Shown: positions 1,731 to 19,937 of the stretch, in pieces
Position numbering within the stretch: the first letter of the stretch is position 1
Layout: every line of letters starts with the position of its first letter
Source of the DNA: a virus
Virus record (IMG/VR): IMGVR_UViG_3300035698_003841
Coordinates: 1 to 21,276 of that record
Length of the DNA: 21,276 nt
Direction: 5' to 3' (one strand)
Position numbers and translations under genes: made by a program
The notes under the pieces: model-generated
Told to the model about the DNA's origin: nothing
Database searches by the model: none
The model's input: the letters and a program-made list of their open reading frames with translations, nothing else

Positions 1731-4286
1731 CTAATCGAACGAGTCATAAGTGCTTGTATATAGCATAAACAGCGTTATAGTAGCATCAGGTGTACTAACA
1801 AATGATGTTATTTGATTATTGCCAGAATTCAATACGAATTCTTCAAAATCAGAACCAGCAAGAACGGCATCTGGTCTTGACCTATAAAAACTTGATAAGA
1901 TATACTTGTTATTTGGATCGGTGTTCAAAGTAAGCGTTTCTCCATCTGCTAGGTTATAATCAAAAGACAATGTTATTCCTAGCGTTTCATTTCTTATTTG
2001 TCGCAAGGTCGCTGCCGTGCCCCCACTGCGAGAAAGTATAAATTTTGGATATGCTAGTTGATTTCCATCATTATCTTCCGTAACGATACCTGAGAAGTCG
2101 GAAGCAACCGTCGCGCTTGCATTTGCCCCGAACCATATATTATAGTTATCAGGTACGATAGAATCTTGTTTTGAAAAGGCAACACTATACGCGATCATTG
2201 AACTGCCAAATTCTACATCTAAGTGTATCCAAACAGAGCCGTTCCAAATACTGCCCGTCTGTGTAGAATCAATACCGCCGATGGTGGTAAAATCTCCAAA
2301 AGCATACAATAACCCGTTCGGTGAAAATTTCAAGACCCTAACCGTGTTATTCGCTCCACCATTCATGTCAGACCAGGCGACGTTATTATATTTAGCGACT
2401 CTTAAAAATGAAGTACCTCCTATTGTCGTAAAAGAGCCACCTATATATTTATTATTAGAATTGTCTATGGCTATTGTGCCAACGGCGCCATTAGGCTCAT
2501 CATTAATAGTGATAAAACTGGTTCCATCCCAAGATACGAAATAAAGTGCTGCTGATCCTCCGGCAGTCGTAAAAGAGCCACCTATCCACAATAGATTATC
2601 GTCGTCAACGCCTAACGCTAGACCTATAGAACCTAATCCGCTACTTAAAGCACTGTAAACAGAGCCATTCCAACATACTATATAATCAGCATTAGCAATG
2701 TTATTCCAATCTGTAAAGTTACCAGTTATGTATAATAAACTATTTTTATCTATTGCCAGTGCGTTTACATTAGTTATGGATGCCGATCCTGTTAACGGGT
2801 CGCCGACTGCTGAAAAGGTATTCGCAACCGGATCGTATAGTGCTAGGTGTTCTGTGTTTGCCACTCCACCGGCCAATGTAAAATCGCCGCCCATATATAA
2901 TTTTCCTGTTGCATCAAATACCATACAACGTACAATACCATTAGTGCCTGTACTCAATGCTGACCAAATTCCGGTAGATACTGTATATTTTGCGACATAG
3001 CTCGTATTGGCAACACCATCTACGCTATTTAACAACCCGCCTATATACAGATCGCCATCTGGTGAAGTTGCAACAACGAATACGGTAGTTATTGACGATG
3101 CGCCGTCTAGATTTAAAACATCCCATTGCCCAGAAGATGTTAACCTTGCCCCAACCCGTCTTAAAGTCGCACTATTAACAGTATCCAGCGTAACGCTATT
3201 TTCCCCTATCGCATACCAAAAAGGATCAGGGGAGTCAAATTGCAAGGCGACCTTTTCATGTACTTGGTTGTCTACACCTAGATTCACTTCTAATCCTGAT
3301 TTATAGTGTACCTTTATTTCCTTTGCTATATCACCCATATATCGTATAATGACCGGTTGCCATCCGTTTTCGTCAGCCGGCACACTATTATATTTTAAGG
3401 CACTGATTAGATTTTTTCTTGCTGCGTTCAAGTCGCAAGTATCAACCCCAGTTAGATCAATGTTCCCGACTAATTGCCACGTTCGGGGTTTCGTTTTCAC
3501 GCTGTTTAATTGCCCGCCTGGTTCGGTTGCATAATTATCTATAGTATTATTTTGCTGTGTAGCACCTGCCCCGATTATATCTGATATCCCAAAATAATAG
3601 TCGTCTTTAAAGTCATAAACTCGGCCACCGGCACGACTTAGGGCGTTTCTGGTGGTCGAACTGCCATTCGGAGTCGAATCCCAATCACAATCCGACTGAG
3701 AGCCGTCTGCGAATGTCGTCCAATATTCCTTCTCTTCTACTTGTACAGCATCTACGTAAAAATCACCGCTCCCAGCACCGCTCTGAGCAAGCCACAACAA
3801 CGTGCTTCCGTTCGCCTGTGCTGCCGGAAATTGAAGACCGTACAGCGACCATATACCGTCATAGTCAAGTAATTTTGCCGGTGCAGTGAAAGTGCCCCCA
3901 CTGTCAAGCGACCACGTTGTTCCGTTAGCCGGCAATGTGCCGCGTATGCGAACAGTCACATAGTGAATCGCGTTTGACAATGCGCCAAGTGTTAAGACTA
4001 TACGCTCAGAAACCCCAGCCGTTTGCACCCTGTATCCATATACGCCCTTCCAGCCATACGCAGCAACCCGTGTTACTGTTGCGCCGCCCCCAGCTACGAA
4101 ATTTCCTGCTATTTCACCAGACGGATTATATACCTTGTTCTGTGTAGATTCTGGTAATATAAATTTCCATTTACTCATATATATACTCTCTTTTCGCACA
4201 AGAGGCATATAAATCTCATAAACCTCTTGCGCTGATACATTGACTACTAATAAAATACATAAAACTATAAATATTATCTTTTTCAC
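1731..4286 (-). CDS. Distal tail (Dit) protein with carbohydrate-binding-like module and inserted beta-propeller
   Basis: This gene follows the tape measure by 11 bp and precedes the hub, the canonical place of Dit, the ring that joins tube and tip. From GTG 4286 (AAAGGG ahead of it) it has 851 residues. Residues 1-20 look like a signal peptide (MKKIIFIVLCILLVVNVSA). A second start, ATG 4178 (residue 37, GAGAG 7 nt upstream), gives a normal Dit without it. Residues 45-200 form a beta-rich CBM4/9-like module (YNPSGEIAGNF ... FYVDAVQVEE). Residues about 215-355 match the Siphovirus tail-component RIFT domain (DYYFGISDIIG, PRTWQLVGNID, LQFDSPDPFWY). Residues about 400-690 hold six 48-52 residue repeats of YIGGSFTTIGG type, a propeller. 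The last 110 residues resemble the Dit C-terminal galectin-like part. Dit identity is good; the start and the sugar-binding roles are inferred. Confidence 0.8.
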   Translation of the reverse strand: MKKIIFIVLCILLVVNVSAQEVYEIYMPLVRKESIYMSKWKFILPESTQNKVYNPSGEIAGNFVAGGGATVTRVAAYGWKGVYGYRVQTAGVSERIVLTLGALSNAIHYVTVRIRGTLPANGTTWSLDSGGTFTAPAKLLDYDGIWSLYGLQFPAAQANGSTLLWLAQSGAGSGDFYVDAVQVEEKEYWTTFADGSQSDCDWDSTPNGSSTTRNALSRAGGRVYDFKDDYYFGISDIIGAGATQQNNTIDNYATEPGGQLNSVKTKPRTWQLVGNIDLTGVDTCDLNAARKNLISALKYNSVPADENGWQPVIIRYMGDIAKEIKVHYKSGLEVNLGVDNQVHEKVALQFDSPDPFWYAIGENSVTLDTVNSATLRRVGARLTSSGQWDVLNLDGASSITTVFVVATSPDGDLYIGGLLNSVDGVANTSYVAKYTVSTGIWSALSTGTNGIVRCMVFDATGKLYMGGDFTLAGGVANTEHLALYDPVANTFSAVGDPLTGSASITNVNALAIDKNSLLYITGNFTDWNNIANADYIVCWNGSVYSALSSGLGSIGLALGVDDDNLLWIGGSFTTAGGSAALYFVSWDGTSFITINDEPNGAVGTIAIDNSNNKYIGGSFTTIGGTSFLRVAKYNNVAWSDMNGGANNTVRVLKFSPNGLLYAFGDFTTIGGIDSTQTGSIWNGSVWIHLDVEFGSSMIAYSVAFSKQDSIVPDNYNIWFGANASATVASDFSGIVTEDNDGNQLAYPKFILSRSGGTAATLRQIRNETLGITLSFDYNLADGETLTLNTDPNNKYILSSFYRSRPDAVLAGSDFEEFVLNSGNNQITSFVSTPDATITLFMLYTSTYDSFD
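2209..3080 (-). repeat. Six-fold beta-propeller repeats inside Dit
   Basis: Six protein repeats at roughly 140-160 bp spacing share the pattern (Y/W)-h-x-G-x-F-T-x-x-G-G followed by 7-9 residues and a strand ending in W-N-G or Y-N-N: YIGGLLNSVDG, YMGGDFTLAGG, YITGNFTDWNN, WIGGSFTTAGG, YIGGSFTTIGG, YAFGDFTTIGG. Each is preceded by a strand of the form V-x-A-h-x-h-D, for example VRCMVFDATGKLYMGG and VRVLKFSPNGLLYAFG. This is the look of delta-60/Rax2-type beta-propeller repeats. The repeats are diverged at the DNA level, so they are protein repeats rather than recent tandem duplications. Confidence 0.75.
4176..4190 (-). promoter_or_regulatory. Internal ribosome binding site and ATG for a short Dit form
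   Basis: GAGAG at 4190-4186 lies 7 nt before ATG 4178-4176, in frame with the GTG start at 4286. Starting here gives MSKWKFILPE..., which is how a cytoplasmic tail protein would begin and removes the 36-residue signal-peptide-like leader. Which start is used, or whether both are, cannot be told from the sequence. Confidence 0.5.
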
Positions 4287-9199: not shown

Positions 9200-9658
9200 C
9201 TATGTTACTGTTAATGTGGGCTTACCACTTATTTTGATTGTTAAATCTGCTGTGTGCTGACCTTCTACCGGCGAGCTTTGCGTAAAGTTGGTTGGATATC
9301 CGTCAAAAGTCCAAATAGCCGTAGTACCAGTGCAAGAATTAAGGGTACATTGCCACGATGGCACGATACACCCATCTTCGTCAAACGAACCTAGTATACC
9401 CGTGCCTGCCGCCCCGACCACAACCGAATTCGTAGGATCAAATCCAATAGTGAATGAACATTCGCCACCATCAGAAACCCCAGCTATAAATTCCCTGTAT
9501 CCGCTTGCCGCCACTTTTGAATCGTGGTCTGTTACGTCTATCGTTGAGCGTGTTACGCCCATAACTTGTAAGTCCTGTACTTGCCCTACTGCCCCATACG
9601 CTGTTCCGCCAGCAGGATCAAATTGTAAAATCGAACCAAAACTTGGAACGTGTGTCAT
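9200..9658 (-). CDS. Major tail tube protein
   Basis: 152 residues, preceded by AAGGAG, directly upstream of the tail chaperones, the canonical tube position. It has the tube-protein signatures SRSxIDVTD-like (TRSTIDVTDHDS), a loop YREFIAGVSDGGECSFTIGFDP, and a C-terminal SPVEGQHTADLTIKISGKPTLTVT, the pattern of siphophage tube proteins in which the last strands carry E/D-G-x-x-x-x-x-x-L-x-I-K-x-T/S-G-K. It stacks as hexameric rings around the tape measure to form the tail. A clear paralogue makes up the C-terminal half of the gene at 14179-15219; this copy lacks the extra N-terminal domain and is best placed for the main tube. Confidence 0.88.
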   Translation of the reverse strand: MTHVPSFGSILQFDPAGGTAYGAVGQVQDLQVMGVTRSTIDVTDHDSKVAASGYREFIAGVSDGGECSFTIGFDPTNSVVVGAAGTGILGSFDEDGCIVPSWQCTLNSCTGTTAIWTFDGYPTNFTQSSPVEGQHTADLTIKISGKPTLTVT

Positions 9659-9701: not shown

Positions 9702-10031
9702 TCATCCTTTCCTGTTCTCTATGAGTCGTCTTCTGGTGTTTATATCTTTAGCCCAAACAATAAAGTAAGAATCATCCAGTTCCTTTATGTCTACCGCCCC
9801 GATCATCTTACAGATAGCCTTCTTTTCCATTTGTCTACCTGCTGTAATTATGACTACGTATTTTTTACAAATGCGTTTGGCTAATTTTACCAGCCTGCTG
9901 GATTCTTTATTAAAACCGTTTAATATTACAACGTCGGCGCTTAAATTGTCGGGGCTATCTTCAGCTATAATCAGCGTCGTGTTATTAGTCGTGTATTGTA
10001 GCGTGTATCTTTGTATGTCAGTTAATCGCAT
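9702..10031 (-). CDS. Unknown protein, alpha/beta fold, last gene of the glycosyltransferase cluster
   Basis: 109 residues, overlapping the end of the preceding glycosyltransferase by 14 bp and thus likely translated with it; a 43-bp gap with the tube's ribosome site follows. I do not recognise the family. The pattern is alternating strand and helix: LIIAEDS, ADVVILNGF, a basic helix KLAKRICK, YVVIITAG, a helix KKAICKMIG, and SYFIVWAK. That arrangement resembles the second half of a Rossmann fold, such as a class I methyltransferase without its SAM-binding glycine loop, so it may be a truncated enzyme or an accessory subunit. This is inference from strand order only. Confidence 0.6.
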   Translation of the reverse strand: MRLTDIQRYTLQYTTNNTTLIIAEDSPDNLSADVVILNGFNKESSRLVKLAKRICKKYVVIITAGRQMEKKAICKMIGAVDIKELDDSYFIVWAKDINTRRRLIENRKG

Positions 10032-10797
10032 TTTCTATTGTCTCCCAAAAAATCCGCGTGGCATTGCGGCACATGTCGGGGTTATACCACTCGTAGAATG
10101 ATCTTGTATCTCCATACAAGACACATTCTAGACCACTGCATATTGCCTCTATTACAACGTGGCAATACAAATCATCCATAATTGGTTTATACCAAAAATA
10201 CTTGTATTGTGCTAATATATTATGAATATCGCCGTGCGGAATTACGCCTTTATATACTAAAGGTTTCTCCACAACACTTTTCGCATTCCTTCCCATTTGC
10301 CCGTATATGTCAACAGACACCCCGTTCTTATGAGCAAAGTCAGCTAGGAAATGAATGCCTTTTTCTATAGAAGCTCTACCGAACCAAACATACCCGCTCC
10401 TGCTAGGTAATCTGGCGCTAAATTTGTCAATATCAACCGGTAAAGGTACAAATCTAGTTTTTGTAAAATCATAATCCCATTGGAACATACTTTGTTGTTT
10501 TGGGGAATTAAATAGTACTGCTTGCGCGTTGTCTAATATAAATCTGGTTAATCGAACATCGCCTAAAGGCATTAGATCGTGACAGTGCTTTACGAAAGGT
10601 TTATCTTTTAGAACGCCTATCCAGCGTCTATCATAATAGATACTGTTGTTTATTACAAAAATATCAATGCCATCCGGTGGTCTCATATTAGCAGGGCAAT
10701 GCACGATTTCGCCCGGAGCGCCTAATACAAAAGCATCGTCTGATACCTCCGCGCCTCCTAATACATTAGTTTTATCGCTTATCCATCCTATTCGCAT
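10018..10797 (-). CDS. GT-B glycosyltransferase, family 4-like (short)
   Basis: 259 residues, short for the family (usually 350-400). The N-terminal half opens MRIGWISDKTNVLGGAEVSDD, with the G-G-A-E acceptor-side loop of GT4 enzymes; the middle has RFVPLPVDIDKF (family pattern x-x-P-N-G-V-D-x-x-x-F) and GRASIEKGIHFL (nucleotide-sugar-domain G-R-x-x-x-x-K-G). Near the end YCHVVIEAICSG carries Glu217 of the E-x7-E motif, while the partner eight residues earlier is Asp209. It should transfer a sugar from a nucleotide donor to an unknown acceptor. Shortness plus the Asp substitution raise the chance of altered or weak activity. It overlaps both neighbours (10 bp and 14 bp), so it is in one operon with the larger transferase. 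Confidence 0.85.
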   Translation of the reverse strand: MRIGWISDKTNVLGGAEVSDDAFVLGAPGEIVHCPANMRPPDGIDIFVINNSIYYDRRWIGVLKDKPFVKHCHDLMPLGDVRLTRFILDNAQAVLFNSPKQQSMFQWDYDFTKTRFVPLPVDIDKFSARLPSRSGYVWFGRASIEKGIHFLADFAHKNGVSVDIYGQMGRNAKSVVEKPLVYKGVIPHGDIHNILAQYKYFWYKPIMDDLYCHVVIEAICSGLECVLYGDTRSFYEWYNPDMCRNATRIFWETIENAIN

Positions 10798-11000
10798 TCC
10801 GTTATCACCACATCTACGCCGTTCATCACTAAAATCTCAACATCTTTTTCGCAGCCGAGATTTTTTAACTTCTCAGAAACCAGATCAGATATATGTACAA
10901 AATCTTCCACGTCAATTAAACCGCCATCGACTTTTAAAACGACAAGATATTTCTTGCCTGGTTTTATTTGATATAACCCCGTCAAGTCTACGTTTACCAT
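10788..11000 (-). CDS. Small unknown protein between two glycosyltransferases
   Basis: 70 residues, starting at ATG 11000 inside the end of the upstream glycosyltransferase (7-bp overlap) and overlapping the next by 10 bp. I do not recognise it. The sequence is beta-alpha-beta: KYLVVLKVDGGLIDVEDF, a helix HISDLVSEKLKNLG, then VEILVMNGVDVVITE. No Cys/His metal site, signal peptide or membrane segment is present. Tight coupling on both sides implies a role tied to the glycosylation genes, perhaps a subunit or regulator, but that is context only. Confidence 0.6.
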   Translation of the reverse strand: MVNVDLTGLYQIKPGKKYLVVLKVDGGLIDVEDFVHISDLVSEKLKNLGCEKDVEILVMNGVDVVITECE

Positions 11001-12139
11001 AAAGTTTTTTCTACCCTTTCTAGATAAGATTTCCAGTAATTGTTCATCACGAAATTGTGATCGTATTCAGTCATCGCACTTATACCTTGCACGGTCAAAG
11101 GCGCAAGTTGCCCTTTGTAAACGGCTTCTAACGCTTGCGCCACATTATCAATGTTTGCTCGTGTCCACCAATAGTGTAATCCTGGATGCATTTCTTTTTC
11201 GCCGCCAGCACAGCATATACCGTTAATAGTCAGTTCTGGCATCGCGCTACAATCGTTAGTAATGACCGGAATACCGCTTGCTTGTGCTTCTATGAGCGGC
11301 ACGCCAAACCCTTCGCCCCGTGACGGCAATAGAAATGCGTCTGATGCTTGGTATATTTTTACTAATTGATTGTCGGGGATTCCAAAAAAGTATTCTACCT
11401 GATTCACGAAACAGACAGACGCTTCGGGCATATTTATTAGATTAAAAAACTCTTCAAAATACATACCTTCTTTTGAGCCGAAAGGAGTCGGGGTAGTATG
11501 CAAGTATAGCAGGGAGTCAGGGTGTTTCAAGTGAAATTTTTTGTACGCTTGCAGTAATTCGGGCCAGCCTTTACGGTAGGGGAAACCCTTGTTTGCCGCT
11601 ATTGTCGAAACTATAAATTTGTCGGGCGGAAAACCAATACTCTCTTTGGCTTTGCGTTTGTCGTCTACTGGCTTAAAGATTTCGGTTTCTACCATTAAAG
11701 GAATATACTCGGTATCGTACCCGACTTTTTTATATTCTTCTTGGGCAAACCGCGCCATTGTGATAGGGTATTCTATCTGTGCCATTTTATTGATCATTGC
11801 TTTTGGCACGGGATCACCGTCAAGAGGTATCCAGGCCATCCAAGGGCAAGGGAGCGTTTTCTTTACAAAATCGGGGATCGCCCAAATGTCGTATAAAGAA
11901 ATGATTAATTGTGCCCGAAAATGCTTAGCATATTTACCAACTGTATCAGCACCTAAAGGGTGGCGCTTGATTGGATAGATGGTCATTCCACGCCAGTTCA
12001 AGCTACTGCCATAAAGTCCATAATTCGCTATAATGGCGACTTCATGACCTAAGCGTTGCAAACCCAGTGCTAATAATTTTGTCTGTTTGCCATAACCCGT
12101 ATAGGTATGAGGCGAAGCAGAATATATTGCGATTCTCAA
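10994..12139 (-). CDS. GT-B glycosyltransferase, family 4
   Basis: 381 residues, full length for GT4. The N-terminal domain begins RIAIYSASPHTYTGYGKQTKLLALGLQRLGHEVAII, the acceptor-side Rossmann fold with the G-Y-G-x-Q/T loop. The donor domain contains FIVSTIAANKGFPYRKGWPELLQAY (in place of the usual G-R-x-x-x-K-G) and a complete E-x7-E motif, Glu276 and Glu284, in PSRGEGFGVPLIEAQASGIPVI. It likely transfers a hexose or similar from a nucleotide donor. The start is TTG 12139 with GGAAGGA 7 nt upstream; the codon overlaps nothing and lies 1 bp after the stop of the tail terminator. Position inside the tail cassette suggests a virion protein or the host surface as substrate; the acceptor is unknown. 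Confidence 0.92.
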   Translation of the reverse strand: MRIAIYSASPHTYTGYGKQTKLLALGLQRLGHEVAIIANYGLYGSSLNWRGMTIYPIKRHPLGADTVGKYAKHFRAQLIISLYDIWAIPDFVKKTLPCPWMAWIPLDGDPVPKAMINKMAQIEYPITMARFAQEEYKKVGYDTEYIPLMVETEIFKPVDDKRKAKESIGFPPDKFIVSTIAANKGFPYRKGWPELLQAYKKFHLKHPDSLLYLHTTPTPFGSKEGMYFEEFFNLINMPEASVCFVNQVEYFFGIPDNQLVKIYQASDAFLLPSRGEGFGVPLIEAQASGIPVITNDCSAMPELTINGICCAGGEKEMHPGLHYWWTRANIDNVAQALEAVYKGQLAPLTVQGISAMTEYDHNFVMNNYWKSYLERVEKTLW

Positions 12140-14178: not shown

Positions 14179-15219
14179 TCACGTTACTGTGAGCGTGGGT
14201 TTCCCCGTTATTTTTATCGCCAAATTTGCTATGTGTTCGCCTTCTACCGGCGAGTCTTGCTTAAAGTCTTGTACGAAACCAGAAAATTGCATTATTGCTG
14301 TATCTTCACAAGTGTTCAAGTCTATTTTGAAAGTCGCTACCGATGTTCCAGGATTTGATAGGTTAGCGAATAAATTTGTACTGTGTTCTGCGTTCTCAGG
14401 ATCAAAACCGATGGTAAACGCAAGTTGCCCGCCATCGCTGAAGCCTGGCGTATATACTCTAAACCCGCCATTTGTCGCGATGTCATCTCTATCGGTAACG
14501 TCAATTACTGATCGCGAAATAGAAACCGTCTGGATATCTTTAACTTGCCCGACTACTACCCAAGCAGTTCCACCCGCACTATCCCAACTCAGGATCGTTC
14601 CAAATGATGAGATATGAGAATGAAATACGCTACCGCCACCAAAATCATTAAGGGCTAAGTTAAAACTTGCGCCAGCCCCGATATAACCTGCTAAAGAATA
14701 AGTAGCATCTGATTCAGTGGCAACCTCACCCCAGCTTCCACCGACCGGTTGACGGTAGCACGAAATATCGCTACCGTCTACTCTAAGACCTAGTTTGTCA
14801 CCTTCTTCTATAGAAAGTTCAATGACAGCGCCAATTACTTCTATGTCTTCGTATGTATCTAGCCTTAAAAGAAATAAAAGATCGATGTCTGCATCAACTC
14901 TGGCATAACCAAGGGCATAGCCCGTTAAGGTAGTAGCGTGGGGGTTATTCATTCTAACGAATAATATTATTGCTATCTCTTCGTCATCAATATCAGTGGC
15001 AATAGTGCAATACGCTTCTGAATTTGCATTAAACTTTGTAGTATTCCACCAAGCATTATTATACTCGTTTGCCGTAACTTCGGTTGCTAGGTTAGACTGT
15101 ATTTCTAGACCTTCACCGGCAAGCGTAAAGAATATATCGTTTGTCCAACTAGAATTCGGTGGTGAAGTCCCGTTTACACCGTCAAAAGTCTCAATTATGG
15201 GGGTAACAGGAAACGTCAT
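14179..15219 (-). CDS. Tail tube paralogue fused to an N-terminal concanavalin/LamG-like domain
   Basis: 346 residues in two parts. Residues 1-195 read as a concanavalin/LamG-like jelly roll (ETFDGVNGTSPPNSSWTND, repeated strands, KLGLRVDGSDISCYRQPVGG). Residues 200-346 are a paralogue of the tail tube protein at 9200-9658: shared are DxAGGTA followed by VGQV, SRSxIDVTD, GFSDGGQLAFTIGFDP, and the nearly identical end SPVEGEHIANLAIKITGKPTLTVT. It follows the gp10-like gene by 1 bp (AGAGGC ahead of ATG). It may be a minor tube subunit that displays the sugar-binding fold along the tail, or the working tube with a decoration domain. No frameshift or broken motif argues for decay. Confidence 0.82.
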   Translation of the reverse strand: MTFPVTPIIETFDGVNGTSPPNSSWTNDIFFTLAGEGLEIQSNLATEVTANEYNNAWWNTTKFNANSEAYCTIATDIDDEEIAIILFVRMNNPHATTLTGYALGYARVDADIDLLFLLRLDTYEDIEVIGAVIELSIEEGDKLGLRVDGSDISCYRQPVGGSWGEVATESDATYSLAGYIGAGASFNLALNDFGGGSVFHSHISSFGTILSWDSAGGTAWVVVGQVKDIQTVSISRSVIDVTDRDDIATNGGFRVYTPGFSDGGQLAFTIGFDPENAEHSTNLFANLSNPGTSVATFKIDLNTCEDTAIMQFSGFVQDFKQDSPVEGEHIANLAIKITGKPTLTVT

Positions 15220-16056: not shown

Positions 16057-16471
16057 CTGTTGTGTCCTCGTCTATCTCTGCATAGTTAAAAGCGTGTAAT
16101 GAAACACCCTTTAACCCATATTTCGGCAATGTACCACTACAATCCATAGCCTTGGCTGCTTGTCCATAGGTTGAACCATCTAGCATTAAACCATCTTTGC
16201 CCATAAAGCTCGCAGCATATTCCCCAGCTATGCTAATACTTTTTAGCTGGCGCTGATCGGGATGCATTGACATAAAGTGAGCGGCGAGAAGTCGCTGGAT
16301 AATGCATAATGCTCCGTTACCCCCACATTTATCTAGCTTCCCGACTAGTCGCAAAGTCGCATAATACGCCATATTTATAAAGAAATTTATCTGTGTATCT
16401 ACTAGGTCAGTGTCTATTATTTCCCTAACGTCGTCAGCATCAATGCACGCCCCGGCAACGAGTGTAGTCAT
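16049..16471 (-). CDS. Head-tail adaptor, DUF4054/gp6-like
   Basis: 140 residues, mostly helical. DADDVREIIDTDLVDTQINFFINMA is the typical first segment of head-tail adaptors that bind the portal (sequence beginning with x-x-D-V-R-x-x-x-x-x-x), followed by LCIIQRLLAAHFMSMHPDQR and SIAGEYAASFMGKDGLMLDGSTYGQAAKAMDCSG, in line with DUF4054, where A-H-x-x-x-x and Y-G-Q-x-A/F-x-x-x-D are conserved. It starts at the stop of the E3-binding-motif gene (TAATG). Confidence 0.8.
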   Translation of the reverse strand: MTTLVAGACIDADDVREIIDTDLVDTQINFFINMAYYATLRLVGKLDKCGGNGALCIIQRLLAAHFMSMHPDQRQLKSISIAGEYAASFMGKDGLMLDGSTYGQAAKAMDCSGTLPKYGLKGVSLHAFNYAEIDEDTTDG

Positions 16472-16713
16472 TATTCTACCGCTACTATATCAGTCTTGAT
16501 AATTCTTCCGCCCGATCCGGTTCCATCTACCGTAGCCAGATCAACACCTTTTTCTTGTGCAAGTTTAATCGCCGCAGGGGACGCTTCAACCTCTTCGGCT
16601 AACACGACTATTTCTAATCTGTCTTTAAATGATTCGTACTCTTCTACCGTAGCATCAATAATAGAACCAGCACTATGCCCATTATGCTTGCCTCTTAGAA
16701 CTTTTACTTTCAT
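16471..16713 (-). CDS. Small head protein with E3-binding-like (peripheral subunit-binding) motif
   Basis: 80 residues. Residues 1-40 form a small domain (KVKVLRGKHNGHSAGSIID, then a helix). Residues 44-78 are a close match to the peripheral subunit-binding domain of 2-oxo-acid dehydrogenase E2 subunits: ASPAAIKLAQEKGVDLATVDGTGSGGRIIKTDIV, with the usual S-P-x-x-x-x-x-A, G-x-D-L, G-T-G-x-G-G-R-I and D-V/I signature. Such motifs occur in small phage proteins between major capsid and adaptor genes; the role there is not settled, and binding to the capsid or connector is my inference. ATG is preceded by AAAGGA; the gene lies behind an attenuator-like hairpin, so it should be made at a lower level than the capsid protein. 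Confidence 0.8.
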   Translation of the reverse strand: MKVKVLRGKHNGHSAGSIIDATVEEYESFKDRLEIVVLAEEVEASPAAIKLAQEKGVDLATVDGTGSGGRIIKTDIVAVE

Positions 16714-16754: not shown

Positions 16755-17759
16755 TTATGCGCCTGTGTAATGTAATAATCCGGAATGACCATTATAATCC
16801 GATTTAAATCTCGGAACCGCTACGGTCATGACTTTGAAGAAGTTTGTTCCGCCATCGCCGCTCATCCACTGAATATTTCTGCCCATGAATGTCAGCCCAA
16901 GATCAATTACGTTAGGTGTCATTTGCATTACGATAAGTACACCACTTGTCAACCAATCGCTAGGATGTACTGCTCGAAGTTGAGGCAATTTCCGCACTGT
17001 ACGTTCAAGCGCTGAATCACCGCTACCATCCGAATACACTTCTAGCATTTCGATATATTGATCATTAGCCACCCAACTTTCAAACGGCCCGTGAAACCCA
17101 TCCGCCGTAAGAGCTTTGATTGCTTTAATATAAGTCGAATAAATATTACTTATTGTACCAAAGTCGCCCGAGGCTGTTCCCGTATTCCGATCTGGATGTG
17201 TTGTCGCGCCATAAATCGGATTACCCGATAGAGAAATTGTCGCATCGCCATCATAGAACATACGTTCCAATTCTTCAGCAACCACTTGACTTGCGGCATA
17301 AGCATTACTAGCGTCAATGCCATCGCCGAATCTGCGGCTTGCAGCAAGCTCCCGTTCACCAAGAGCGTACTCCTTGTGAATTACTGGAACCGGCACACTA
17401 GCCAGATTATAATCTACCCGATCTTTATCTGTGTTACCACGACCGGTTATAGATACTTCGGCGCGAGCCATTTCGGAAACAACGTTCCATTGCGAAAGAA
17501 CTGTGCCAATAGAACCAAATCTCTTAACCAGCCCCAACGTTTGGAGTCTGGCAATAGCGTTTAGTCGGTCTTCTTGCGCCTTGATAACTTGGCGATCTAA
17601 TTCTTCCCATTCGTCTTTTCTCAAAAGAGAGTTTGTCGTGATCTGTCTAACAGAATTATAAACTTCTACAAACCCGTTTTTATTAACCTTTAACTCGCCA
17701 TTTACAGCCAGCGGTTCAAAGGCTTTACTGAATTCAATATTCGCTTGTGATTGTATCAT
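16755..17759 (-). CDS. Major capsid protein, HK97 fold, encapsulin-like
   Basis: 334 residues, with TAGGAG ahead of its ATG. The N-terminal arm (1-50) is followed by LRKDEWEELDRQVIKAQEDRLNAI, then DYNLASVPVPVIHKEYALGERELAASRRFGDGIDASNAYAASQVVAEELERMFYDGD, the pattern of encapsulin/linocin-like HK97 proteins (P-x-P-h-x-x-x-x-x-h-x-x-R-E-L ... A-A-x-x-x-x-E-x-E-x-x-h-F-x-G). The loop GNPIYGATTHPDRN and the C-terminal TMGRN-like P-domain strands agree. It follows the protease/scaffold and decoration genes as expected and is the main shell subunit. No N-terminal cleavage site can be defined from the sequence. Confidence 0.9.
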   Translation of the reverse strand: MIQSQANIEFSKAFEPLAVNGELKVNKNGFVEVYNSVRQITTNSLLRKDEWEELDRQVIKAQEDRLNAIARLQTLGLVKRFGSIGTVLSQWNVVSEMARAEVSITGRGNTDKDRVDYNLASVPVPVIHKEYALGERELAASRRFGDGIDASNAYAASQVVAEELERMFYDGDATISLSGNPIYGATTHPDRNTGTASGDFGTISNIYSTYIKAIKALTADGFHGPFESWVANDQYIEMLEVYSDGSGDSALERTVRKLPQLRAVHPSDWLTSGVLIVMQMTPNVIDLGLTFMGRNIQWMSGDGGTNFFKVMTVAVPRFKSDYNGHSGLLHYTGA

Positions 17760-17769
17760 TTTATATCTC

Positions 17770-18231
17770 CTACGCTATGTTGACGCGAACACGCGCCACT
17801 GCTGATGTTGTTGTCAGAACTTCGTTTGCATACCCGACTATCGAACCGGCGAATGTCTCTGTACCAACTGTTAATACCGACAAATTACCACTCCCATCGC
17901 TACCAAGAGGCGAGCCAATAACTGCCGTTTCTGCTGTTCCCAAGAACATATTCAATTCGTCGCCAGATACTCCAAACATATAACGAGTTGTTTCGTCTGC
18001 CGCATAAGGATCATCAATTCCGGCTGTTCCGGCGGTTTGAGTGTACGGATTTTTATCGGCAACCATCTTTTGCGATTCGCCACCTGCTGTACTGTGGTAT
18101 TGTAGCTTGCCGCTTGTCCATTCTACGAGTTTGCCAGGTATGATTGCACTATCTGCCAACGCTTCGTGAATGTAATTGTCGCGATCACCTTGACGGCTGA
18201 TTACGATTGTGTGATATACTGAACTAGCCAT
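17770..18231 (-). CDS. Capsid decoration (cement) protein
   Basis: 153 residues between protease and major capsid genes, where decoration proteins lie in many siphophages. Composition is Gly/Thr/Ala/Ser-rich beta, with the pattern of DUF2190-like or lambda D-type proteins: HEALADSAIIPGKLVEWTSGKLQYH (effect of A-x-x-I-x-x-G-x-L-V), a middle MFGVSGDELNMFLGT, and a C-terminal GSIVGYANEVLTTTSAVARVRVNIA, in which the short loop and the last strands (G-x-A-x-x-x-x-x-x-x-x-x-V-R-V) are common to the group. A very strong GGAGGAGG at 18246-18239, inside the end of the protease gene, indicates high expression. The start shares one base with the protease stop. Confidence 0.8.
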   Translation of the reverse strand: MASSVYHTIVISRQGDRDNYIHEALADSAIIPGKLVEWTSGKLQYHSTAGGESQKMVADKNPYTQTAGTAGIDDPYAADETTRYMFGVSGDELNMFLGTAETAVIGSPLGSDGSGNLSVLTVGTETFAGSIVGYANEVLTTTSAVARVRVNIA

Positions 18232-19937
18232 TATTTAACCTCCTCCGTAAACTTGTAACCCATCTTGCGAATTTCTACTGTTTCTTCTTTATCCAAGTTA
18301 TTTGTTGCTCCCAGACCAGCATAATTCGCCGGAGCAAGGATTTTCTCAAGGTTAGTCAAAGATTCGTCAGCCATCGCTTCTAGCTGTTCTTTAGTGAAAG
18401 TGTTTCTTTCGTTGGCAATCAAGCCTTCAATAACTATGTTTCTAGCTTGTGTTTTGTTTTCAACAATCTCTTTGTACTCTTTGAGAACGTTGTCAACCCC
18501 ACCAACGGCAGCGAATTTGCCGACCATCGCTTCAACCGATTTAGTCAGTTCGTCAATTTTAGAATTAGTTTCTACTTGCCCTTGCTCTAATTCTACAATC
18601 TTGGCATTTGGTTTTGCGTCTTCTTTCTTTTCGTCTTCTTTCTTTTCTGCTGCTTTTTTAACTGGTTTTTCTTCTTCGTCGTCGTCTTTTTCCCAAGGGA
18701 ATTTAGCCAGCACAGAAATGAGTTTGTTCAAAACTTTCGCGTCAACACCTTCCAACTGTTCTACTGTAAAGCCGTGTCTTTTAAGTATTGCTACTTTCTT
18801 TTCATCCATTTTATTCTCCCGTACAAACCACGTCTTGAATTTCTCAAAAACGCTTTGCGCTACTTGCTCAGTTTCTAGAGCAACTTGTGTATTGTTCCCA
18901 GTATTGTCCGTCACTTTTTTTTTCTCCTCTAATTCGTAATCATATCTTTTACCATTCATATACAAACTGATAATGTTAAATTTTATATTAGAGACTGTAT
19001 TGATCTCTTGTTTAATTGAATCACCTTTTTCAAGATATTTCAATGTAATATGGGCTATAAATTTATCTTTTCTCGATACTGCAAAATCGTGTTTAGATAA
19101 TAGTTCTACCAGATCAGTTCTGAATTGTAGCAATTCAGAACTTTTATACCCAACATAAAAAGCAGTATTTTTTTCTAATTCAAATTTTCCAGAACCTTCA
19201 ATGTTGCCACTTACCGGATAATGCAGTAAAGAAAAATCTTGTACTATTTGTTTTAACCTGCTATCACTGACTTGTCCGAGATGTGCCAATGTTAAATGCA
19301 AGTCGGTAGGTTTTTCTCCACCCTCTACCGCAATTTTTCTAGCTGTTTCTGTATCAAGAGAGAACGCTATAATTGTACTTTTGCTAATATTGTCCCGTAT
19401 TCCACAACCATCTTCACAGCTACAGGCTCCAACGTCATCAAGCAGGATAGCCAAATGATCGGGTTTAATGTTTTTCGCTATCGTAGCATAAACATCACCA
19501 TTCCAAATGCCCGGATTCTCATCATAATCCCTAAAATAGCCGGTTGATACTTCGATTTTGTTTTTGGTTTTTAGAGATTCTAAAAGCCTTCGCCCGTCTC
19601 TGTGTTTCCTTGCTTTGCTTAGATCAATCCACGCCTCTCCTTTTAGCGCTTTGCCAACTAATTTAGTATTAAATAATTGACCAATTTGATACTTAGCTAA
19701 GACTTCAGGGCTATTCGCGGAAGTCGGTAGGCCGTCTGCCAATTCGGGATGATTCATAACTATCGGCCTACCATTCCAAGAAGGAAATCCGTCAGCTATT
19801 TCTTTAAAAGGTACAAATTCCCCATTTAAAACGCCTTCGATTATGGCCACTACTGGGGCTATGGCATAATCTACCCCATCTACCGTCTTGTATGTAACGC
19901 CTGCTATTCTGTTGCTTGTATATTGTATTTTGTTCAT
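18231..19937 (-). CDS. Capsid maturation protease (DUF2213/XkdF type) with inserted 2H phosphoesterase and C-terminal scaffold
   Basis: 568 residues in three parts. Residues 1-180: prohead protease of DUF2213/XkdF type, with NGRPIVMNHP (His63), KIEVSTGYF (Ser131) and KPDHLAILLDDVGAC (His161), as in HK97-type serine proteases. Residues 187-336: a 2H phosphoesterase (LigT-like) domain with both motifs, HLTL at 214 and HITL at 296. Residues about 340-568: a scaffold-like part with a charged Lys/Glu run (417-442), a coiled coil (447-495) and an end EEVK. The protease is assumed to cut scaffold and capsid arm during assembly; the 2H domain would hydrolyse a 2',3'- or 2'-5' phosphoester. It precedes the decoration and capsid genes. 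ATG 19937 has only a weak ribosome site and sits 2 bp after the previous stop, so coupling is likely. Confidence 0.88.
   Translation of the reverse strand: MNKIQYTSNRIAGVTYKTVDGVDYAIAPVVAIIEGVLNGEFVPFKEIADGFPSWNGRPIVMNHPELADGLPTSANSPEVLAKYQIGQLFNTKLVGKALKGEAWIDLSKARKHRDGRRLLESLKTKNKIEVSTGYFRDYDENPGIWNGDVYATIAKNIKPDHLAILLDDVGACSCEDGCGIRDNISKSTIIAFSLDTETARKIAVEGGEKPTDLHLTLAHLGQVSDSRLKQIVQDFSLLHYPVSGNIEGSGKFELEKNTAFYVGYKSSELLQFRTDLVELLSKHDFAVSRKDKFIAHITLKYLEKGDSIKQEINTVSNIKFNIISLYMNGKRYDYELEEKKKVTDNTGNNTQVALETEQVAQSVFEKFKTWFVRENKMDEKKVAILKRHGFTVEQLEGVDAKVLNKLISVLAKFPWEKDDDEEEKPVKKAAEKKEDEKKEDAKPNAKIVELEQGQVETNSKIDELTKSVEAMVGKFAAVGGVDNVLKEYKEIVENKTQARNIVIEGLIANERNTFTKEQLEAMADESLTNLEKILAPANYAGLGATNNLDKEETVEIRKMGYKFTEEVK
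18807..18820 (-). promoter_or_regulatory. Internal ribosome binding site for a possible separate scaffold protein (start at residue 377)
   Basis: GGGAG at 18820-18816 lies 6 nt before ATG 18809-18807, in frame with the protease gene. Starting here would give a 192-residue protein, MDEKKVAILKRHGF..., holding the charged run and coiled coil. This is the arrangement by which lambda C makes scaffold Nu3 from within the protease gene. Confidence 0.6.
18912..18929 (-). promoter_or_regulatory. GAGGAG - A9 - GTG: second possible internal start at the edge of the 2H domain
   Basis: GAGGAG (18929-18924) is followed by nine A (18923-18915) and GTG (18914-18912), in frame at residue 342. The spacing of nine is workable for an internal start, giving a 227-residue scaffold-like form. 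The A9 run is also slippery: a -1 slip reaches a stop after about 16 codons and a +1 slip stops at once, which would release protease plus 2H without scaffold. Confidence 0.4.
18930..19379 (-). other. 2H phosphoesterase (LigT-like) domain, AT-rich insert
   Basis: Residues 187-336 of the maturation protease: IIAFSLDTETARKIA (first strand), LHLTLAHLG, GSGKFELEKNTAFYVGY, a helix LLQFRTDLVELLSKH, FIAHITLKYL, and a final strand NIISLYMNGKRYDYEL. Two H-x-T-h motifs about 80 residues apart define the 2H superfamily (2'-5' RNA ligase/cyclic phosphodiesterase group). By hand count GC is about 27% over 18961-19140, against about 47% (19681-19800) and 41% (18241-18360) in the flanking protease and scaffold parts. 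Confidence 0.85.

Follow-up and report, generated by a model that had tools for sequence, protein, structure and literature searches.

The 2H phosphoesterases share an enzyme fold and cleave RNA ends and nucleotide signals. RNA 2',3'-cyclic phosphodiesterases of the LigT/ThpR type carry this fold, with its two HxT motifs, as free-standing proteins, and the phage anti-CBASS nuclease Acb1 has it as well. The text of Iyer et al. 2017 (PMC5512222) describes 2H domains in polyvalent proteins and in fusions to MuF or portal, never with RNA ligases, and suggests for them a role as RNases or in breaking down the nucleotides that counter-invader systems use. The text of Iyer et al. 2022 (PMC9503650) carries the same idea, with packaging and injection, and describes Nudix domains fused to a capsid-processing serine peptidase.

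Here we analyze a 21,276-nucleotide stretch of viral DNA (IMG/VR record IMGVR_UViG_3300035698_003841, positions 1 to 21,276; hereafter the window) in which a 2H domain shares one polypeptide with a head-assembly protein, as in the head-packaged 2H type. The gene resembles the MuF-2H and portal-2H proteins of Iyer et al., which are fused to virion head proteins and for which those texts predict packaging, injection, and an action on RNA or immune nucleotides. The carriers named there are MuF and portal, whereas the carrier in the window is a DUF2213 maturation protease-scaffold. LigT/ThpR provides the best sequence and structure match, with the same fold and motifs, but the window domain is embedded in a head gene and falls under the TIGR02258 equivalog cut-off. 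Acb1 shares the fold and a phage origin, yet the window protein has no Acb1 family match and a weaker structural score to Acb1 than to LigT. T4 gp21 has the fold of the protease domain in common (Z 12.3); the match covers just this part of the window protein, and T4 gp21 lacks a 2H domain. A 2H-protease fusion was not found in the text of either Iyer paper, although their figures may draw one; as far as we found, the DUF2213 protease-scaffold carrier, its exchangeable slot, a presence/absence pair, and the range of protease types involved are new relative to those texts.

Results

Architecture of the protease-2H-scaffold gene

The gene, its parts, and the two genes that follow it are listed below.

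18231..19937, minus strand: whole gene, maturation protease, 2H phosphoesterase, and scaffold-like tail, 568 aa (single open frame; family matches; full-length model)
19428..19907, minus strand: DUF2213 head maturation protease domain, residues ~11-170 (PF09979, phrog_760, structure match to T4 gp21)
19383..19421, minus strand: disordered linker, residues 173-185, with invariant R181-x-N183 (pLDDT <50; candidate cleavage site)
18927..19385, minus strand: LigT-like 2H phosphoesterase domain, residues 185-337 (Pfam, TIGRFAM, and PHROG matches; AF2 pLDDT 95.6; drCPDase and LigT as best structures)
19287..19298, minus strand: first 2H motif HLTL, residues 214-217 (sequence)
19041..19052, minus strand: second 2H motif HITL, residues 296-299 (sequence)
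18234..18926, minus strand: scaffold-like tail, residues 338-568 (secondary structure and pLDDT; motifs in common with the L087 tail)
17770..18231, minus strand: next gene, putative decoration or head-stabilizing-like protein, 153 aa (function suggested by position)
16755..17759, minus strand: major capsid protein (DUF6260 3.8e-24, Linocin_M18 2.7e-11)

Both motifs lie where the initial annotation had placed them, HLTL at residue 214 and HITL at residue 296 of the 568-aa frame, and its placement of the 2H domain between protease and scaffold parts agrees with the DUF2213 match before the domain and the helical tail after it. The protease-2H-scaffold architecture is real and well supported; the functions of its parts are predicted from sequence and models. 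The gene order of protease, ~155 aa protein, and capsid protein is also seen in contig L087 and in the L114-L129 group.

The match of the protease part to PF09979 (DUF2213; 9e-5) is barely over threshold, at 22.9 bits against a cut-off of 22, and that to phrog_760 is strong (3e-29). In the full-length model this part superimposes on the T4 gp21 capsid assembly protease (5jbl, Z 12.3) and, at Z 7-8, on herpesvirus proteases. His63, Ser131, and His161 are invariant in alignments of its relatives; they fit a Ser-His-His head protease, and from what we know of the fold we presume them to be the likely catalytic residues. By the PF09979 match and this conserved His/Ser/His set, the domain is a predicted member of the DUF2213 capsid maturation proteases, and its fold and gene order imply that it would cleave scaffold and capsid protein.

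Model confidence is low in both linkers that bound the 2H domain, residues 173-185 (pLDDT <50) and 340-380. Within the first, R181 and N183 are invariant in 19 relatives, whatever occupies the position after the protease. Beyond the second, the full-length model continues into helices, and low-confidence coil with helix is the expected look of a scaffold. Tails of DUF2213 proteins show a roughly twofold enrichment of Asn that follows Ala/Thr/Val and has Ile/Leu/Pro another two positions upstream. This hints weakly at a possible maturation cleavage motif, and homology among the tails can also produce the enrichment.

The insert had been reported as near 27% GC. Its low GC relative to the flanks stands, but for the whole insert we measured 31.3%, against 41% in the protease part and 39% in the tail, and only the inner part falls to 23-30%. 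Third-position GC is 22% (versus 35-38%), and the insert is close to the lowest-GC 450-bp stretch of the window (bottom ~1%). This fits later acquisition, and the Lys/Asn-rich protein itself contributes to the low GC.

We also noted features of other genes in the window, all on the minus strand. The capsid protein (16755-17759) matches the encapsulin family (Linocin_M18 2.7e-11) besides DUF6260. Directly downstream, an 80-aa product (16471-16713) carries an E3-binding (peripheral-subunit-binding) domain by PF02817 (5.9e-15), which is more familiar as a part of 2-oxoacid dehydrogenase complexes. Two paralogous tail-tube-like proteins (9200-9658 and 14179-15219) share 48% identity over 151 residues, the second having an extra ~200-residue N-terminal part. 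Amid the tail genes lie a group-1 glycosyltransferase (10994-12139; PF00534 7.8e-16) and a similar-looking neighbor with no Pfam match (10018-10797), and a large tail-region protein (1731-4286) has a Rax2-type beta-propeller match (PF12768 9.8e-10).

The inserted domain is LigT-like

Searched with the whole protein, TIGR02258 (3.6e-10) and the LigT_PEase / 2_5_RNA_ligase2 pair, PF02834 (1e-7) and PF13563 (5.6e-7), all match, both Pfam scores exceeding their curated cut-offs. PHROG families named 'RNA ligase' match the 2H domain down to 2e-15, and a PHROG named head maturation protease matches weakly through its own 2H-like part. The TIGR02258 equivalog cut-off of 65.7 bits was not reached by the whole protein (40.0 bits) or by the domain alone (43.4 bits), and we therefore call the domain LigT-like rather than LigT.

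An AlphaFold (AF2) model of the domain, built with 68 aligned sequences, has a pLDDT of 95.6. Its best solved match is the Deinococcus RNA 2',3'-cyclic phosphodiesterase (drCPDase; Z 17.7, 152 residues aligned, rmsd 2.8), accompanied by Thermus and archaeal LigT-like proteins and by E. coli LigT (Z 15-16). Human Usb1 scores Z ~15.6 with ~8% identity in the structural alignment, the rotavirus VP3 2'-5' phosphodiesterase Z ~13.9, and Acb1 (7t26/7t27) Z 10.9-11.3. A Foldseek run also ranks LigT-like structures ahead, and the closest predicted viral structures are the same kinds of head-gene 2H proteins. A sequence profile gives a parallel order: archaeal and bacterial LigT-like proteins at 7e-13, coronavirus ns2 at 3e-4, poxvirus cGAMP phosphodiesterase at 0.016, and Acb1 at 1.5. 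The Acb1 Pfam family (PF23474) has no match at E <=1 to the whole protein or to the 2H domain alone, and PADLOC, run on defence families, returned none. Against the PDB, phmmer with the single domain found no match where the profile did.

The 2H fold proposed from the motifs is therefore confirmed by Pfam scores above cut-off, the confident model, and the drCPDase match, and on the two HxT/S motifs and the predicted fold we assign the domain to the 2H superfamily. Comparison of the model with LigT and Acb1, suggested at the outset, gave Z 15-16 for the former and at most 11.3 for the latter. Acb1, offered as kin, was not the nearest relative, since LigT and the RNA 2',3'-cyclic phosphodiesterases are far closer by both profile and structure. 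The wider idea of the initial annotation, a head-enclosed 2H domain that may act against host defence, had already been published in 2017 and 2022.

The second motif, which was absent from the search pattern, is kept as HxT/S in 67 of the 68 aligned relatives. The first is present as HxT in 68/68, but most of these relatives were found with a pattern that included it. Widespread loss of the two histidines in homologues, which would have spoken against the domain, was not seen. Intact second motifs in all but one relative make an inert relic unlikely, and the domain is very probably an active enzyme.

The architecture recurs, and its slot is exchangeable

A full-protein search of viral contigs returned zero exact relatives, and the single 2H query only one; alignments were needed for more. 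With these, the insert was traced to other DUF2213 proteins: the DUF2213-2H-scaffold order occurs in at least four other viral contigs (L087, L095, L113, and L116), all with both HxT motifs. The L087 protein (543 aa) is 32% identical over its full length, and its head genes are syntenic, followed by the same two gene types. Because the architecture recurs, it is not a one-off accident, and we rejected assembly chimerism on the same ground. Elsewhere in L087 (690-3230), a MuF-like gene is seemingly split by an intein-like insert, with a further peptidase-like part at its end (by eye).

The nearest 2H-less protease relatives, L096 and L097, are 53% identical over residues 21-180. In these two, in L101 (a Paenibacillus mesophilus locus), and in most other 2H-less relatives, a small alpha/beta-looking domain fills the slot; elsewhere it holds ParB_N (L158), TUDOR (HATV-3), or almost nothing (L099). 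Since its content ranges from varied domains to nothing, the slot is exchangeable.

A second arrangement is found in L114, L119, and L121, where the 2H domain sits before the DUF2213 protease. L127-L129 lack it and are ~94-96% identical to the carriers in flanking protease-side DNA, so that gain or loss of the cassette is seen inside a single phage population. Between the diverged pairs L114 versus L119/L121, dN/dS in the 2H domain is 0.10-0.14, which points to a functional protein. In the tree, the L114 domain groups with that of the Mu-like-protease fusion L033 (support 100/94) and not with the C-terminal-slot domains, so that fusions of 2H to DUF2213 proteases probably arose on two or more occasions. 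The window domain lies on a long branch; it and the other C-terminal-slot DUF2213 2H domains are ungrouped, and a single clade of them is not rejected (p-AU 0.41).

Related 2H domains occur in head genes of other phages

With a profile of head-associated 2H domains, 240 relatives were found in viral contigs and 80 kept. Local profiles, with seeds from the same set, detect a head domain in 49 of the 80 viral ORFs. A Pfam scan of 59 ORFs gave XkdF protease in 17, portal in 10 (plus 3 Mu-type), MuF in 7, Mu-like protease in 6, capsid domains in 3-4, and DUF2213 in 1, counts drawn by similarity to head-associated 2H queries, so that the head bias is partly selected. Domain orders include portal-2H-MuF, 2H-XkdF, and 2H-...-capsid, and some fusions also carry histidine phosphatase, ADP-ribosyltransferase, zeta toxin, or uracil-DNA glycosylase domains. 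Weak hits to the Acb1 Pfam family were obtained for two of these 59 head-fused ORFs (best 1.4e-4).

Among cultured phages, the same 2H subfamily occurs in head genes of Arthrobacter, Gordonia, and Streptomyces phages, and Mycobacterium and Gordonia phages have stand-alone 2H genes near portal or protease/head genes. Arthrobacter phage Edmundo gp18, Gordonia phage Stultus gp17, and Streptomyces phage YDN12 gp12, labelled 'RNA ligase' or 'capsid maturation protease', have it in or beside maturation protease/MuF genes; they differ from the window in protease type (XkdF and others) and domain order. Taken together, the subfamily is a recurrent head passenger, which suggests cargo carried in the particle.

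Several loci have further features. Histidine phosphatase, 2H, and XkdF protease share one head-gene polypeptide in L038 (2772-6719), L066 (2835-5954), and L035 (3063-5933), the phosphatase being called by Pfam in the first two and by eye in L035; L038 adds an ADP-ribosyltransferase domain. A capsid domain lies downstream of 2H in the same polypeptide in L027 (4863-7853), L031 (4683-7691), and L073 (3834-7610), so that 2H copies would there equal capsid subunits. In Gordonia phage GMA6 (L011, 4175-5290), the gene after the 2H gene resembles an ADP-ribosyltransferase by eye. Virion proteomics has been published for Gordonia phages, with GMA2 and GMA6 among them (PMC4524720).

Discussion

We propose, at a little short of even confidence, that an active LigT-like 2H enzyme rides as passenger cargo in the slot of the protease-scaffold, where it would be enclosed, freed, and injected for early counter-defence. 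By analogy with protease-scaffold biology, the scaffold part would draw the fusion into the prohead, a step that we consider highly likely. As the head matures, the protease would break down the scaffold, and it may also cleave within the two flexible linkers that flank the 2H domain; the low-confidence linkers and the invariant R-x-N in the first of them suggest that the protease frees it. A free domain of ~150 residues would be left inside the head, and some of it would be ejected with the DNA; to retention and injection we give even chances. Maturing heads usually expel or degrade their protease and scaffold, and by the same route the 2H domain could vanish before infection, which counts against delivery. 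In a new host, its two HxT motifs would, by family chemistry, hydrolyze 2',3'-cyclic phosphate or 2'-5'/3'-5' phosphodiester bonds. The benefit would most likely lie in weakening host defence at an early stage, either through destruction of nucleotide alarm signals or through processing of the RNA ends that defence RNases make. LigT likeness pulls toward RNA ends and the head location toward early counter-defence; that an immune nucleotide rather than RNA ends is the main substrate is plausible, though we hold it with somewhat less than even confidence. The long branch of the window domain means that its own function could have drifted, which also counts against this proposal.

The nearest families and structures are RNA 2',3'-cyclic phosphodiesterases (TIGR02258; drCPDase, Z 17.7; E. 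coli LigT, 15-16; LigT profile, 7e-13), and this makes it a substantial minority possibility that the domain works as LigT/ThpR does, opening the 2',3'-cyclic phosphates that metal-independent defence RNases leave on RNA, either after injection or late in the producing cell. Fusion to a head protein suits delivery better than same-cell repair, however; the text of Iyer et al. 2017 reports this kind of 2H never with RNA ligases, and the 21-kb window, which leaves out most of the genome, contains no ligase. An effector that attacks host RNA, a Usb1-like RNase delivered to damage or remodel it, would accord with the structural score of human Usb1 (Z ~15.6) and with the RNase role that Iyer et al. 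propose in their text for head-fused 2H domains; we regard it as quite improbable, as the sequence profile does not pick Usb1 and only ~8% of residues are identical when the two structures are aligned.

Cleavage of 3'3' cyclic oligonucleotides by an equivalent of Acb1 is improbable too. The common fold (7t26/7t27, Z 10.9-11.3) and the weak Acb1 Pfam matches of two of the 59 head-fused relatives speak for it, but a common fold leaves the substrate unfixed, LigT-like structures score far higher, the Acb1 profile reaches only E 1.5, and the Acb1 Pfam family does not hit the window protein at E <=1. Relatives whose slot is nearly empty or holds an unrelated domain illustrate that a spacer can do without catalysis, and the domain might accordingly be a structural relic or serve non-catalytically, for example in sizing the protease-scaffold. 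We consider this very improbable: the second HxT/S motif persists in 67 of 68 diverse relatives, a related cassette is under purifying selection (low dN/dS), and the same 2H is also attached to portals, MuF, and other proteases, settings in which a spacer would have a different role. The relic alternative raised in the initial annotation is disfavored on these grounds.

A broader version of the passenger-cargo proposal, which is speculative and on present data unlikely, is that one 2H subfamily has been attached again and again, in many unrelated phage lineages, to whichever head protein comes to lie inside the prohead (protease-scaffold, portal, MuF, or capsid precursor). The head protease would free the enzyme, which would be injected and would cut host nucleotide alarm signals before phage gene expression, and the protease-scaffold slot would serve generally as a bay for interchangeable cargo.

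The 'RNA ligase' genes of many actinophages would be better described as head-associated 2H phosphoesterases, and the carriers L119 and L121 set against L127-L129 offer a natural presence/absence contrast for 2H function. If the 2H domain is delivered, it would constitute a phage counter-defence working before gene expression, and the protease-scaffold gene would be a modular cargo-loading device readable from sequence.
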